The notes under the pieces were generated by a model, which saw only the letters and a list, made by a program, of their open reading frames with translations, searched no databases and was not told the origin of the DNA. Positions 10,787 to 46,261 of a stretch of DNA of 54,734 nt are shown piece after piece (the first letter of the stretch is position 1; each line of letters begins with the position of its first letter). Location: NCBI GenBank assembly GCA_019748065.1, contig JAIEQB010000006.1, forward strand, positions 1 to 54,734, read 5' to 3'. Made by a program: the position numbers and the translations under genes. Source of the DNA: Alphaproteobacteria bacterium (GTDB lineage: Bacteria > Pseudomonadota > Alphaproteobacteria > UBA9655).

Positions 10787-11310
10787 CTCCTTAGGGTTGT
10801 ATTCCCCGCCGCTTGCGGCGTAGAATACTCGCGTGAGCGAGTATATACATAAGAGCCATAATGTTACGGTGCTGATGTACCATCTTGTATTTCCAGCGAA
10901 GTACAGGTGAGCTGTGTTTGATAAAGATGTGGACAATGTTCTAAAGGAAATATGTTTGGACATTGAATAGCGTTATCAAATGAAATTTTTAGAAATTGGT
11001 ACAGACAAAGATCATGTGCACTTTTTGGTGCAATCAGTGCCGATGTATAATGTAGCAAAAATAGTAACGATCATAAAAAGTCTTACAGCCAGAGAAATTT
11101 TCCGGCGATGTCCCCAAGTAAAAAAGCAATTATGGGGCGGAGAATTTTGGACGGATGGTTATTTTGCAAGCACGGTAGGAAAGCATGGAGATGAAGGAAA
11201 AATAGCTAATTACGTGAAGAATCAAGGAAACGAATACAATAAGTTACATGATGATCGTCAGTTGAGGCTCTTCTAAAATACCCCGCTGCTTGCGGCGGGG
11301 TGATTTATTT
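10787..11310 (+). mobile_element. IS200/IS605-family insertion element, inactive
   Basis: The boundaries come from comparing the upstream regions of the two duplicated genes: the sequence departs after TATTAAAT and rejoins at TAAAATTAG, giving about 524 bases with no target duplication, as is normal for this family. Imperfect hairpins lie at both ends: CGCCGC-TT-GCGGCG near 10808-10821 and CCCCGCTGC-TT-GCGGCGGGG near 11281-11300. The only gene inside is a TnpA transposase with two stops. The exact ends are uncertain by a base or so. Confidence 0.88.
10833..11276 (+). pseudogene. tnpA: IS200-type Y1 transposase TnpA, broken by two stop codons
   Basis: TnpA is a single-strand DNA transposase of the HUH/Y1 type. 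Reading from a GTG at 10833 gives an N-terminus with YHLVFPAKYR, then a TGA near 10893, more homologous sequence, a TAG near 10965, and an intact rest from 10980. The HUH motif is visible as DHVHFLV, and the C-terminal part contains GYFASTVGKHGDEGKIANYVKNQ, where the catalytic Tyr is expected. Both stops can come from single-base changes of Arg and Lys codons. The product should be dead unless supplied in trans from another copy. Confidence 0.85.
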
Positions 11311-41216: not shown

Positions 41217-41969
41217 ATGCTAAACTTTCACAAAGCTCCCTCCCCTCATTTTAATGAGCGCGCCCTGCCCCTTGATTCCATCATTCTCCACTACACCGAT
41301 ATGCCAACTGCAGATGAGGCTCTTGCCTGGCTGTGTCATCCCACGTCACAGGTCAGCGCTCATTACCTTATTGATGAGGCCGGAAAGACTTATCACCTGG
41401 TTGAGGATGAAAAACGGGCCTGGCATGCGGGAGAGAGCTTTTGGCAAGATTGCACAGATATAAACAGCTGCTCCTTGGGAATTGAACTTTCCAATCCTGG
41501 CCATAGTCATGGGTATCAGCCCTTTCCAGAGGCTCAAATTGACGCTCTTCTTCAGTTGTGTGAACAATTAAGTGCCCGCTGGGGTATTCCCAAAAACCGG
41601 ATTTTGGGCCATTCCGACATCGCTCCCCGCCGCAAGCAAGATCCGGGCCATCTTTTTCCTTGGGAAGTACTTTCAAGAGAAGGATTAGGGTTGTGGCCAA
41701 CTTCATCAGATGCCTACTCTGAATTGACGCCCTGCGACTTGATCGCGGGGTCCAGGAAAACGTCACAATGGATCCCGCGGTCGAGCCGCGGGACGTCAAG
41801 TTTTATAGAAGAGGGATTAACCACCATCGGTTATGAAACCGTCTCCCTTCCCCATACGATCAGAGCCTTTAAGCGTCATTTTCAACCCCATCAAGGAGAT
41901 GACCGGGCTGATGGAGAGACCCATCTTTTGATTCAAGGCTTGTTAGATAGCCTAAAAATGCATATATAA
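41217..41969 (+). CDS. N-acetylmuramoyl-L-alanine amidase (AmiD-like), with in-frame palindromic insertion
   Basis: The enzyme cuts the bond between MurNAc and the stem peptide in peptidoglycan and its fragments. The 250-residue protein has the amidase_2 core: LHYTDM with a Zn ligand, SAHYLIDEAGKTY, and GHSDIAPRRKQDPGHLFPW with further ligands. After GLGLWP a stretch of about 25 residues (near 170-195) comes from a 76-base palindromic element at 41724-41799. The usual helical tail (IGYETV..., AFKRHFQP, DGETHLL) follows in frame. So the insertion sits in the linker between domains. AAGGA precedes the ATG. No signal peptide is seen, so it may act on recycled muropeptides in the cytoplasm. Confidence 0.9.
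   Translation: MLNFHKAPSPHFNERALPLDSIILHYTDMPTADEALAWLCHPTSQVSAHYLIDEAGKTYHLVEDEKRAWHAGESFWQDCTDINSCSLGIELSNPGHSHGYQPFPEAQIDALLQLCEQLSARWGIPKNRILGHSDIAPRRKQDPGHLFPWEVLSREGLGLWPTSSDAYSELTPCDLIAGSRKTSQWIPRSSRGTSSFIEEGLTTIGYETVSLPHTIRAFKRHFQPHQGDDRADGETHLLIQGLLDSLKMHI
41724..41799. repeat. Palindromic element inserted inside the amidase gene
   Basis: The first 31 bases (from TTGACGCCC) match the reverse complement of the last 31 (ending GGGACGTCAA) at 25 positions, and all six differences are transitions. The 3' arm itself contains CCCGCGG-TCGAG-CCGCGGG. The element is open in the amidase frame. In position and behaviour it is like the palindromic elements that insert in Rickettsia genes, though I cannot assign it to a named family. 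Confidence 0.8.
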
Positions 41970-41976
41970 AAGAGAA

Positions 41977-42320
<344 letters not shown>

Positions 42321-42321
42321 T

Positions 42322-44037
42322 TTACTCTTCGCCTTTTTTCTCCACGCTGACCATCCATTTTTGCTTGCGGAAGGAATCAACCAACTGGTTAATTTCTTCA
42401 GGGGCCATCCCCAGCACATGGAGTAAGGAAGTCGCTAACTGAGCTGTGGGTTCAACGGTTTCTGGCACCACAAGGCGAGCGCCCGACTTCATCAATTTTT
42501 CATGATGTTTGTGATCTTTAACCCGCACACAAATAGGCAAATCAGGGAACCGGCGTCTTAACATCATCACAACCCGAACAGAAGAGCTGGCCTGGTTGAG
42601 GGTAATCACAACAACCTTTGCTCTCGCAGCCCCAATAGATTGCATCACCTTAAGTTGCTTGGCATCCCCAAAAAAGACGGGATAACCCTTATCTCTTCCT
42701 TCGGTCACTCGCCGCATATCCGTATCAATAGCCACAAAAGGAATCATACGTGACGCCAACAAATCCCCCAGCATTTGCCCCACACGTCCAAAACCTGCAA
42801 CGATCACATGGTTTTGAAACTCCCGAATTTCTTCTTCCTCAATAGTAGGATCCGCATGAGTCTCACGCATTAAGAACTTATCAGAAATCCATTTGCCCAG
42901 AATAGCCAAAAGAGGCGTCAGCACCATGGAAAGGATCACCACGAGGAAAAGAATATCTTCATACCCTTGAGGCAAAAAATCTCGCGCAACGCCGGGGGAA
43001 AAAATAACGAAAACAAATTCGCCTCCCCCCGCTAATAACAAAGATGTGCGTAGAGCTAAGGAGACCTTAAGGACATTGAAACGGCAGAGAACAAAAGTAA
43101 CGGCAATTTTTAAGACCAAGACAAAGGCTAAAAGTCCCAAAACAAGCAAAACTGAGTTTAGAAAGATTCCCAAATTAATGCCCATACCAACGGACATAAA
43201 GAAAACTCCCAGCAACAGACCTCTAAAGGGCTGAATGTCGGCTTCTATTTGATGGCGATATTCGGTCTCTGCCAAAAGGATCCCGGCCAAAAAGGCCCCT
43301 AATTCCCTGGAAAGACCAGCAAACTCAGTCAAAAAGGCTGTCCCTAGAATCACTAAAAAGGTGGTCGCCATAAAAAGTTCGGAACTGCCACTTTGAGCAA
43401 CCGCACGATAGAGAGGCCGAAAAACAAGGCGGCCCAAACCGCCAATGGCTAGCAACACAAACAAGGCCTTCATAATAGCAAAGGAGAGCGCTACTATAAG
43501 GCTTTCCTCTTTTCCACTAAAGGTTGTTGCCAAGATGAGAAGGAATACAACCGCAATGTCCTGGAATAAAAGGATAGAAAAAGAAATGCGCCCAAAGCGA
43601 TAGGCCATCTCTCGGCGGTCACTAAGAACTTGCAACACAACGGCTGTTGAAGAGAGGGAAAGAGCGCCGCCGACCAAAATGGCAGCTTCCTTCGAAAAAC
43701 CAGCCGCCATGCCAATAAAAGCAAAAAGAGCCCCGGTGATCACAACCTGGGGTACCCCCAAACCAAAAACGTATTTTTTTAAGGAATTGAGGCGCTGGAG
43801 AGGCAGCTCAAGCCCGAGAGTAAACAGCAAGAAAACAACCCCGATTTCGCCTAAAAACTGAGTATCCGTTGGATCTTTTATGATTTGTAACATATGGGGA
43901 CCAACAAGCATGCCAGCGGCAAGATAACCCAAGACAGGACTTGCCTTCATGCGCCGAAAGAGAAATACAACCCCCACAGCCGCCATTAAAAAGGCTAAAA
44001 TCGTATATAAATAGTGTACGTTTGGATCCACGCCCAC
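42322..44037 (-). CDS. Kef-type K+/H+ antiporter (CPA2 family) with RCK domain
   Basis: A 571-residue protein with an N-terminal Na+/H+ exchanger domain of about 12 helices (segments FRRMKASPVLGYLAAGMLVGP and FLLFTLGLEL are typical) and a C-terminal TrkA-N/RCK domain beginning VIVAGFGRVGQMLGDLLA. The layout matches KefB/KefC, glutathione-gated K+ efflux systems that acidify the cytoplasm against electrophiles. No KefF/KefG partner is visible. The start is a GTG at 44037, with GGGAG upstream; a second GTG lies two codons later. It is convergent to rnpB with a one-base gap. Confidence 0.93.
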   Translation of the reverse strand: MGVDPNVHYLYTILAFLMAAVGVVFLFRRMKASPVLGYLAAGMLVGPHMLQIIKDPTDTQFLGEIGVVFLLFTLGLELPLQRLNSLKKYVFGLGVPQVVITGALFAFIGMAAGFSKEAAILVGGALSLSSTAVVLQVLSDRREMAYRFGRISFSILLFQDIAVVFLLILATTFSGKEESLIVALSFAIMKALFVLLAIGGLGRLVFRPLYRAVAQSGSSELFMATTFLVILGTAFLTEFAGLSRELGAFLAGILLAETEYRHQIEADIQPFRGLLLGVFFMSVGMGINLGIFLNSVLLVLGLLAFVLVLKIAVTFVLCRFNVLKVSLALRTSLLLAGGGEFVFVIFSPGVARDFLPQGYEDILFLVVILSMVLTPLLAILGKWISDKFLMRETHADPTIEEEEIREFQNHVIVAGFGRVGQMLGDLLASRMIPFVAIDTDMRRVTEGRDKGYPVFFGDAKQLKVMQSIGAARAKVVVITLNQASSSVRVVMMLRRRFPDLPICVRVKDHKHHEKLMKSGARLVVPETVEPTAQLATSLLHVLGMAPEEINQLVDSFRKQKWMVSVEKKGEE

Positions 44038-44750: not shown

Positions 44751-44986
44751 GTCTAATAGTCCTTTCATTTGGTTATCATCCCCGATATAGCGCAGATGGA
44801 GGGGGAGGTTAATAAACATCTGCAAATCGTTTCTTTTTATCTTAGAATAATATGGAATAATTCTTAATATTTTGTAAAGAGGAAAACATTACAGCAATAG
44901 AATTGCTTATGATAAAAGAATTAATTTGTAAGAGAATACAGAAAATGTTATTTTATGAGTTATTGAAAATAAAAAAAGGATTTTCA

Positions 44987-46261
44987 GTGAAAAAAAAGAT
45001 CATCTATTTCATCCTTGCAGGGTTACTCTCTACACAAGCTAATGCTGATCCTATCTATTTAGATTACCAAGCAACAACGCCTGTAGATCCACGTGTCTTA
45101 GAGTCGATGTTGCCTTATTTTACAAAAGAGTTTGGCAATCCCCATTCAACGACTCATGTTTATGGAACTCGAGCCCATGAGGCTGTTGAGCGAGCCAGAG
45201 CACAAGTTGCGAACGTTATAAACGCAGATCCTCAAGAAATTATCTTTACTTCTGGATCAACGGAAGCAGATAACATCGCCATTTTAGGTGTTAGCCGCGC
45301 TTTAAAAAATCAAGGAAAGTCTGAAATTATTAGTGTGGTGACAGAGCATAAAGCTGTCCTAGAACCGCTTAAAGCTCTTGAACGAGAGGGATTCAAGGTT
45401 ATACTTCTCCCCGTCCAAAAAAATGGAATTATAAATATAAGCGATCTCAAAAAAAACCTATCCTCGAAAACAGCCCTTGTTTCTGTAATGGCCGTTAATA
45501 ATGAGATTGGCGTTCTTCAGCCTATTCAGGAAATTGCTAAGTTGGCCCATGAACATGGGGCTCTTTTTCATACGGATGCTGCCCAAGGATTTGGTAAAAT
45601 TCCTATTGATGTTAAAAAAGATGACATCGACCTTTTAAGCCTTTCAGGCCATAAAATCTATGGCCCTAAAGGAATAGGAGCTCTTTTTATTAAAAAGGGA
45701 ACACCCGTCATTCCTCTTGTTTATGGAGGGGGACAGGAAAGAAAAATAAGACCGGGAACCGTGCCTACCCCTTTATCTGTTGGCCTAGGAAAAGCGGCTC
45801 AAATTGCTGAGCAAGAACGTATTCCTGAATCAAAACGTCTTTTAGCTTTGCGTAACAAACTGCTAAATATTTTACAGAAAAATCTTACAGGAGTCATTGT
45901 TAATGGAGACCTTGAGAAGAGGCTTCCTGGAAACTTAAATCTTAGCTTTGCTGGCGTTGATAGTGCGCCTCTTTTATCTAATCTTAAAGGTATTGCTGTT
46001 TCGGCGAGTTCGGCTTGTAGCTCAGATAGTTTAGAATTATCCTATGTTATCCAAGCGATTGACCCTGAGCATACGCTTCCCCCTGCTGTCATTCGCTTAA
46101 GTCTGGGACGTTTTACAACTGAGGCAGAAATAGAAAAAGCTGCTGAAGAAATCATTAGAGTTGTCAACGACTTAAGAGAGAAGAACCCGACGGGAGGAGC
46201 CCGTTCCTGTAAAGCTGAAGATGTTGACAAAATAAAAAAAGAACTCTTAAAAAACATGTAA
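44987..46261 (+). CDS. Cysteine desulfurase (IscS/NifS family) with an N-terminal signal peptide
   Basis: Cysteine desulfurases take sulfur from Cys with PLP, for Fe-S clusters and thiolated tRNA. The core is complete: PIYLDYQATTPVDP, His in VVTEHKAV (near 121), PLP Lys in LSGHKIYGPKG (near 223), and active-site Cys in SSACSSDS (near 344). Before it lies a Sec-type leader of 20 residues: three Lys, a hydrophobic run (IIYFILAGLL), and ANA before the expected cut. The GTG at 44987 has AAAGGA six bases upstream; a longer frame from 44903 also keeps the hydrophobic run. No iscU, iscA or sufE gene is near. It is divergent from a secreted protein gene. It could be an exported enzyme or a membrane-anchored one. 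Confidence 0.88.
   Translation: MKKKIIYFILAGLLSTQANADPIYLDYQATTPVDPRVLESMLPYFTKEFGNPHSTTHVYGTRAHEAVERARAQVANVINADPQEIIFTSGSTEADNIAILGVSRALKNQGKSEIISVVTEHKAVLEPLKALEREGFKVILLPVQKNGIINISDLKKNLSSKTALVSVMAVNNEIGVLQPIQEIAKLAHEHGALFHTDAAQGFGKIPIDVKKDDIDLLSLSGHKIYGPKGIGALFIKKGTPVIPLVYGGGQERKIRPGTVPTPLSVGLGKAAQIAEQERIPESKRLLALRNKLLNILQKNLTGVIVNGDLEKRLPGNLNLSFAGVDSAPLLSNLKGIAVSASSACSSDSLELSYVIQAIDPEHTLPPAVIRLSLGRFTTEAEIEKAAEEIIRVVNDLREKNPTGGARSCKAEDVDKIKKELLKNM

Follow-up and report, generated by a model that had tools for sequence, protein, structure and literature searches.

A palindromic repeat pair carried in frame by an alphaproteobacterial amidase gene, and its family within one genus

A peptidoglycan amidase gene of an alphaproteobacterium (assembly GCA_019748065.1, contig JAIEQB010000006.1) contains a long palindrome and keeps its reading frame, which raises the questions of what the element is, how it came to lie there, and whether the coding sequence that it adds is more than tolerated. 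Judging by the title of Ogata et al. 2002, protein-coding palindromes were reportedly at first called a unique feature of Rickettsia. A preliminary description of the whole stretch of DNA analysed (54,734 nt, hereafter the window) compared the palindrome with the Rickettsia palindromic elements (RPEs) and considered a separate family that makes coding sequence. Here, the whole genome of the window's species (G000, 1.93 Mb in 83 contigs) was searched together with 38 relatives, and the amidase was aligned across 15 genomes of the genus; the genomes used are fragmented assemblies, and those that bear a name are MAGs.

The amidase gene and its insert

The features of the locus, in window coordinates, are the following:

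41217..41969, + strand: N-acetylmuramoyl-L-alanine amidase gene (250 aa) bearing the insert; ORF, with Pfam PF01510 at residues 18-144
41697..41801, + strand: linker codons 161-195, the stretch of lowest predicted confidence (pLDDT < 50, predicted disordered)
41724..41799, + strand: 76-nt head-to-head REP pair with its tags outside, in frame and corresponding to an insert of some 25 residues; from the inverted repeat, the fold and the ortholog alignment, covariance model R1 matching both strands
41724..41754, + strand: C-type arm, TTGACGCCC...GGGGTCCA, with its own hairpin (9-bp stem, 41729-41737 with 41743-41751; 5-nt loop; CCA tail)
41755..41768, + strand: 14-nt spacer separating the two arms; in the sister species G010, an 18-nt repeat duplicates it in frame
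41769..41799, - strand: T-type arm, TTGACGTCCC...GGGATCCA, read on the - strand, with its own hairpin (41772-41780 with 41786-41794)

The amidase frame is open through the palindrome, from the ATG at 41217 to the stop codon at 41967-41969, and the insert (about residues 170-195) follows the Amidase_2 domain (Pfam, E = 5e-38) and precedes predicted helices at residues 193-245, which confirms the position between catalytic domain and helical tail given in the preliminary description. The inverted repeat itself is also as described there, with arms of 31 nt that are complementary at 25 of 31 positions around a 14-nt loop. As RNA, the long hairpin folds at -51.1 kcal/mol, compared with -26.4 ± 3.4 for dinucleotide shuffles (z = -7.4; none of 200 as good), and is thus strongly non-random. 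The reading of the mismatches as fold-keeping G-U pairs applies to four of the six, the other two being A.C in the mRNA. No Rfam family matched the 76-nt element at its gathering threshold; the best match below it, mir-5429, scored 29.7 bits where 80 are required and was rejected as a generic hairpin.

Length differences among the 15 amidases fall mainly in the linker between the GLW and IGYE motifs, with the exception of a further N-terminal insert in G008, where a second in-frame CGTC-type pair lies near the N-terminus (L025:1300-2205, VLPAKAGIQ...DPRLRGED). This linker has about 43 residues in G000, 49 in G010, and 17-21 in most species. Insertion into the linker is as previously proposed, but the net gain relative to orthologs lacking a large insert is 22-23 codons and not a clean 25, because the flanking linker bases differ too. 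An AlphaFold2 model built on a 14-sequence alignment (mean pLDDT 69) predicts the insert to be disordered.

The G010 amidase carries the element with the same boundaries as G000, apart from its duplicated spacer. The element is absent from the amidases of G003 and G009, which are 92-93% identical over residues 1-165, and likewise from that of G012; in the amidase comparison, the segment is also absent from orthologs outside the genus. A tree based on 540 nt, with the linker left out, placed G000 with G003 (99/98), followed by G009 and G010. Since the insert is present in G000 and G010 and absent from G003, the nearest in the tree, loss or recombination has to be assumed and not one simple gain.

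Two further observations concern the neighbourhood: a class A RNase P RNA (window 41976-42324, + strand) starts 7 nt past the amidase stop codon, and an aminotransferase/cysteine-desulfurase-like ORF (window 44903-46261, + strand) is preceded by an apparent signal peptide (FILAGLLSTQANA), which a cytoplasmic enzyme would not usually have.

Arm structure, pairing and range of the family

The preliminary reading withstood both of the refuting conditions set for it, the orthologs outside the genus being without the segment and further copies existing elsewhere. These copies were found by BLAST and the covariance model in G000 and four related species of the genus (G003, G009, G010 and G012), while the other 10 genomes of the genus yielded no member (BLAST; covariance model E <= 1e-4). 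The model gave 20 matches in G000, 22 in G003, 43 in G009, 142 in G010 and 35 in G012, the true number of places being lower because palindromes match on both strands. Two weak BLAST matches in G019 belong to another family of the same class. Across 84,980 species genomes, an exact degenerate pattern matched 25 stretches, located in four alphaproteobacterial MAGs (G009, G010, G012 and G003) and one contig binned as Flavobacteriales; no record titled Rickettsia in genome_contigs was matched, and a plasmid search returned no match to the family. The Flavobacteriales match (JALEGO010000527.1, 1148-1178; L129, a 3.4-kb contig) is the sole exact unit outside alphaproteobacteria and may be mis-binned.

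Each arm of about 31 nt consists of TTGAC, a 9-bp stem enclosing a 5-nt loop, and CCA. In 16 aligned head-to-head pairs, covariation within arms reached 0.157 against 0.086 in shuffles (0 of 500 as high), the pair that closes the loop alternating between A-U and G-C, whereas the double changes of the long hairpin were equalled or exceeded in 497 of 500 shuffles. Structural constraint therefore acts on the arm and not on the long hairpin. Two arm types occur, T (GACGTCC..GGATCCA) and C (GACGCCC..GGGTCCA), and nearly every classifiable pair combines one of each with the polarity T arm - spacer - C arm. The 23 head-to-head and 23 tail-to-tail pairs follow this rule except for a single pair with two arms of one type and a small number of decayed arms, and a second sample repeated it. 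Selection need not be invoked for such pairing, which may go back to descent from a single master pair.

Tail-to-tail pairs (L004, L071, L074, L083, L088, L090 and others) often share a related spacer of 23-26 nt and have further units beyond, as if within longer composite repeats. A TLC-type ATP/ADP translocase gene (L005:125-1537 in G000; L095 in G009) ends inside a single T-type unit, from which its last residues come; a translocase of this type suggests an intracellular lifestyle.

Copies inside genes and the reuse of linkers

Other genes bearing the element were also found. In-frame head-to-head pairs are present in five Pfam-assigned genes, namely the amidase (G000 and G010), CcmF, HscA and an acyltransferase/AMP-binding protein (all G010), and LpxB (G010 and G012); a second sample of pairs added no copy in a conserved gene. 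Seven of the 23 head-to-head pairs lie inside long frames, compared with none of the 23 tail-to-tail pairs (Fisher p = 0.009; 5/21 when counted by independent sites). Along the gene, all seven coding copies show the C arm before the T arm, a regularity that, across five independent sites, is only suggestive. For HscA and CcmF, close orthologs in G000, G003, G009 and G012 lack the insert, G010 being the only occupied genome among those aligned. The CcmF-CcmH linker of G010 (L051/L169, about G010:C73:61070-61170) holds a second, different palindrome.

The in-frame copies in five genes bear on the proposal of a family that makes coding sequence. The capacity to code does not exceed what base composition gives, with on average 2.91 of six frames open per pair, against 2.87 in shuffled sequence. 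On each strand, the TTGA end of a pair shuts one frame in almost every case. Because most copies are found outside long frames, coding looks like a tolerated by-product.

The amidase and LpxB linkers have been filled repeatedly, as elsewhere in the genus they are occupied by other palindrome families. In LpxB (L134-L138), the linker is filled by the present family in G010 and G012; G000 has a CGTCATTGCGAG-type pair there, G003 a shorter CGTCATTGCGAG-type form that looks like a collapsed G000 pair, and G009 a TGTCATCCTGAG-type palindrome. The CGTCATTGCGAG type is also a repeat within these genomes. The amidase linker contains a different palindrome (TGTCATCCTCGCGAAAGCGAGGATCCA...GGATGACA, of a type that is multi-copy in G014, G008, G000 and G010) in G014, a different CGTC-type pair in G008, and a CTCGCAATGACG-type unit in G001. 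Short palindromic stretches in the amidase linkers of G003 and G009 (CATTACGAGTAATAA, CATTGCGAGCAATGA) look like remnants of collapsed copies.

Relation to known repeats and a proposed origin

The CGTC-tagged REPs defined by Di Nocera et al. 2013 are palindromic units of 20-40 bp with a stem of 8-9 bp, a loop of 4-5 nt, an unpaired CCA tail and an unpaired CGTC (or TGTC/CCTC) tag directly before the stem, and form mostly head-to-head dimers, tail-to-tail ones being rare (PMC3733652). Our units agree with families 3/4 of that class in their 9-bp stem with within-arm compensation, 5-nt loop, unpaired CCA tail and dimeric state, and these families likewise have no linked transposase, occur mainly in alphaproteobacteria and are sometimes intragenic, their dimers encoding 20-30 residues. 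In contrast, the first stem pair is G-U here and A-U there, the tag before the stem is TTGAC (TGAC, not CGTC), with CGTC found two bases later and in T arms only, and tail-to-tail pairs were as numerous as head-to-head ones in the first sample. REPINs (PMC3116915) resemble the family as mobile units of two inverted REPs with a short spacer, similar in length and accompanied by decayed singlets; the fixed polarity of the doublet found here fits this class, but no RAYT gene flanked by units was seen among the Y1 genes inspected, a GTAG tag is lacking, and copies regularly lie inside genes.

The likeness to RPEs noticed earlier holds in that an in-frame palindrome occurs in several unrelated genes. 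RPE-4, RPE-6 and RPE-7 are also short in-frame palindromes at solvent-exposed or linker positions of unrelated genes, with a TGAC-containing end motif and no dedicated transposase reported (PMC3733652, PMC3767692). Orthologs of one Rickettsia gene can bear different RPE groups near one another, for which hot spots or divergent descendants have been asked about (PMC3767692). Unlike these groups, the present family is 76 nt long (84-142 bp among the RPE lengths listed), has true empty sites in close relatives and a fixed T/C arm pairing, and its hosts, by record title, are Alphaproteobacteria bacterium MAGs and the one Flavobacteriales contig, not Rickettsia. The suggestion of a separate family is thus supported, the repeat being distinct, restricted to the genus and set apart from the RPE groups by their descriptions, and no earlier account of it was found in the literature searched. 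Because the CGTC tag fails and tail-to-tail pairs are as frequent, we file it neither as a CGTC REP nor as an RPE; it is probably best placed as a new REP-doublet family behaving like RPE-4/6/7.

Y1 transposase genes are present in G000, G010 and G012, and a search of G003 and G009, both carriers of the family, found none. The Y1 genes inspected are IS200-like, mostly with different end hairpins of their own, and none is flanked by family units; an apparent exception (L067, L106) came from a single palindrome, 0.5-1.4 kb away from the gene, that had been reported twice, once per strand. The window contains a Y1_Tnp (IS200-like) gene with two stop codons (10863-11225, + strand). The IS200-like copies L068 (G012) and L104 (G010) have end hairpins CCACGGGG-CTAG/CTTG-CCCCGTGG, whose 8-bp stem is spelled with the letters found in some C arms (CCCCGTGG..CCACGGGG), the loop lying on the opposite side; the likeness may be due to chance. 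At HscA, CcmF and LpxB, no clean or recognisable target-site duplication was seen.

We consider it very probable that the insert is a copy of a non-autonomous, REPIN-like REP doublet of five related species that landed in the amidase linker and left the gene open. The doublet, two inverted hairpin units of about 31 nt, would spread as a unit of fixed polarity, its T-type end differing from its C-type end, presumably through a single-strand enzyme of the IS200/RAYT type supplied in trans. Landing in the linker would have lengthened the protein by about 23 residues in frame, and the gene could stay open because the element is GC-rich and open in about three to four of six frames and the linker is predicted to be disordered. 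Only harmless in-frame copies would survive, and old ones may later collapse or be replaced. This explanation as a whole is held at that strength with the lack of a flanking transposase, the lack of a recognisable target duplication, the conflict of the amidase pattern with the tree and the fragmented state of the assemblies counted against it.

Two other readings place selection on the insert itself. The long hairpin could be a selected RNA structure (an attenuator, or a signal for the stability or processing of the mRNA beside the RNase P RNA gene) with an incidental coding effect, for which its very stable fold and the 7-nt distance to that gene speak; we regard this as extremely improbable, as covariation is confined to pairs within the arms and close relatives keep the downstream region without this hairpin. 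Alternatively, the REP family could make useful coding sequence, the segment being selected as protein. Seven in-frame gene copies at five sites are compatible with this, as is their uniform C-arm-first orientation, by which the message contains the purine-rich strand of the spacer, but the G000 and G010 amidase inserts differ mostly by amino-acid-changing substitutions (alignment read by eye), and the predicted disorder, the shuffle-like number of open frames and the location of most copies outside long ORFs also make this very unlikely.

A further alternative concerns only the tolerance step of the REP-doublet explanation, namely that the linkers are true sequence-targeted hot spots and not tolerant sites where copies survive. 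Different families in the amidase linkers of G008 and G014, remnant-like palindromes in G001, G003 and G009, and the three fillings of the LpxB linker (G000/G003, G009, G010/G012) lend it some weight; it nevertheless seems somewhat unlikely, since neither a common target sequence nor a duplication was seen, of the genomes aligned only G010 has an element at HscA and CcmF, and survivor bias accounts for the linkers equally well. More speculatively, and in our view rather doubtful, T and C may be obligatorily paired ends moved in trans by some enzyme, with linker landing sites repeatedly shared and exchanged with other palindrome families, so that one genus would be continually rewriting the linkers of its conserved enzymes.

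The genus offers a further system beside Rickettsia, in which five genes have served as targets, close species show true empty sites, and several families of palindromes compete for shared linkers. In such a system, targeted insertion can be tested against merely tolerated insertion, as can the means by which REPs lacking a transposase of their own are mobilised.
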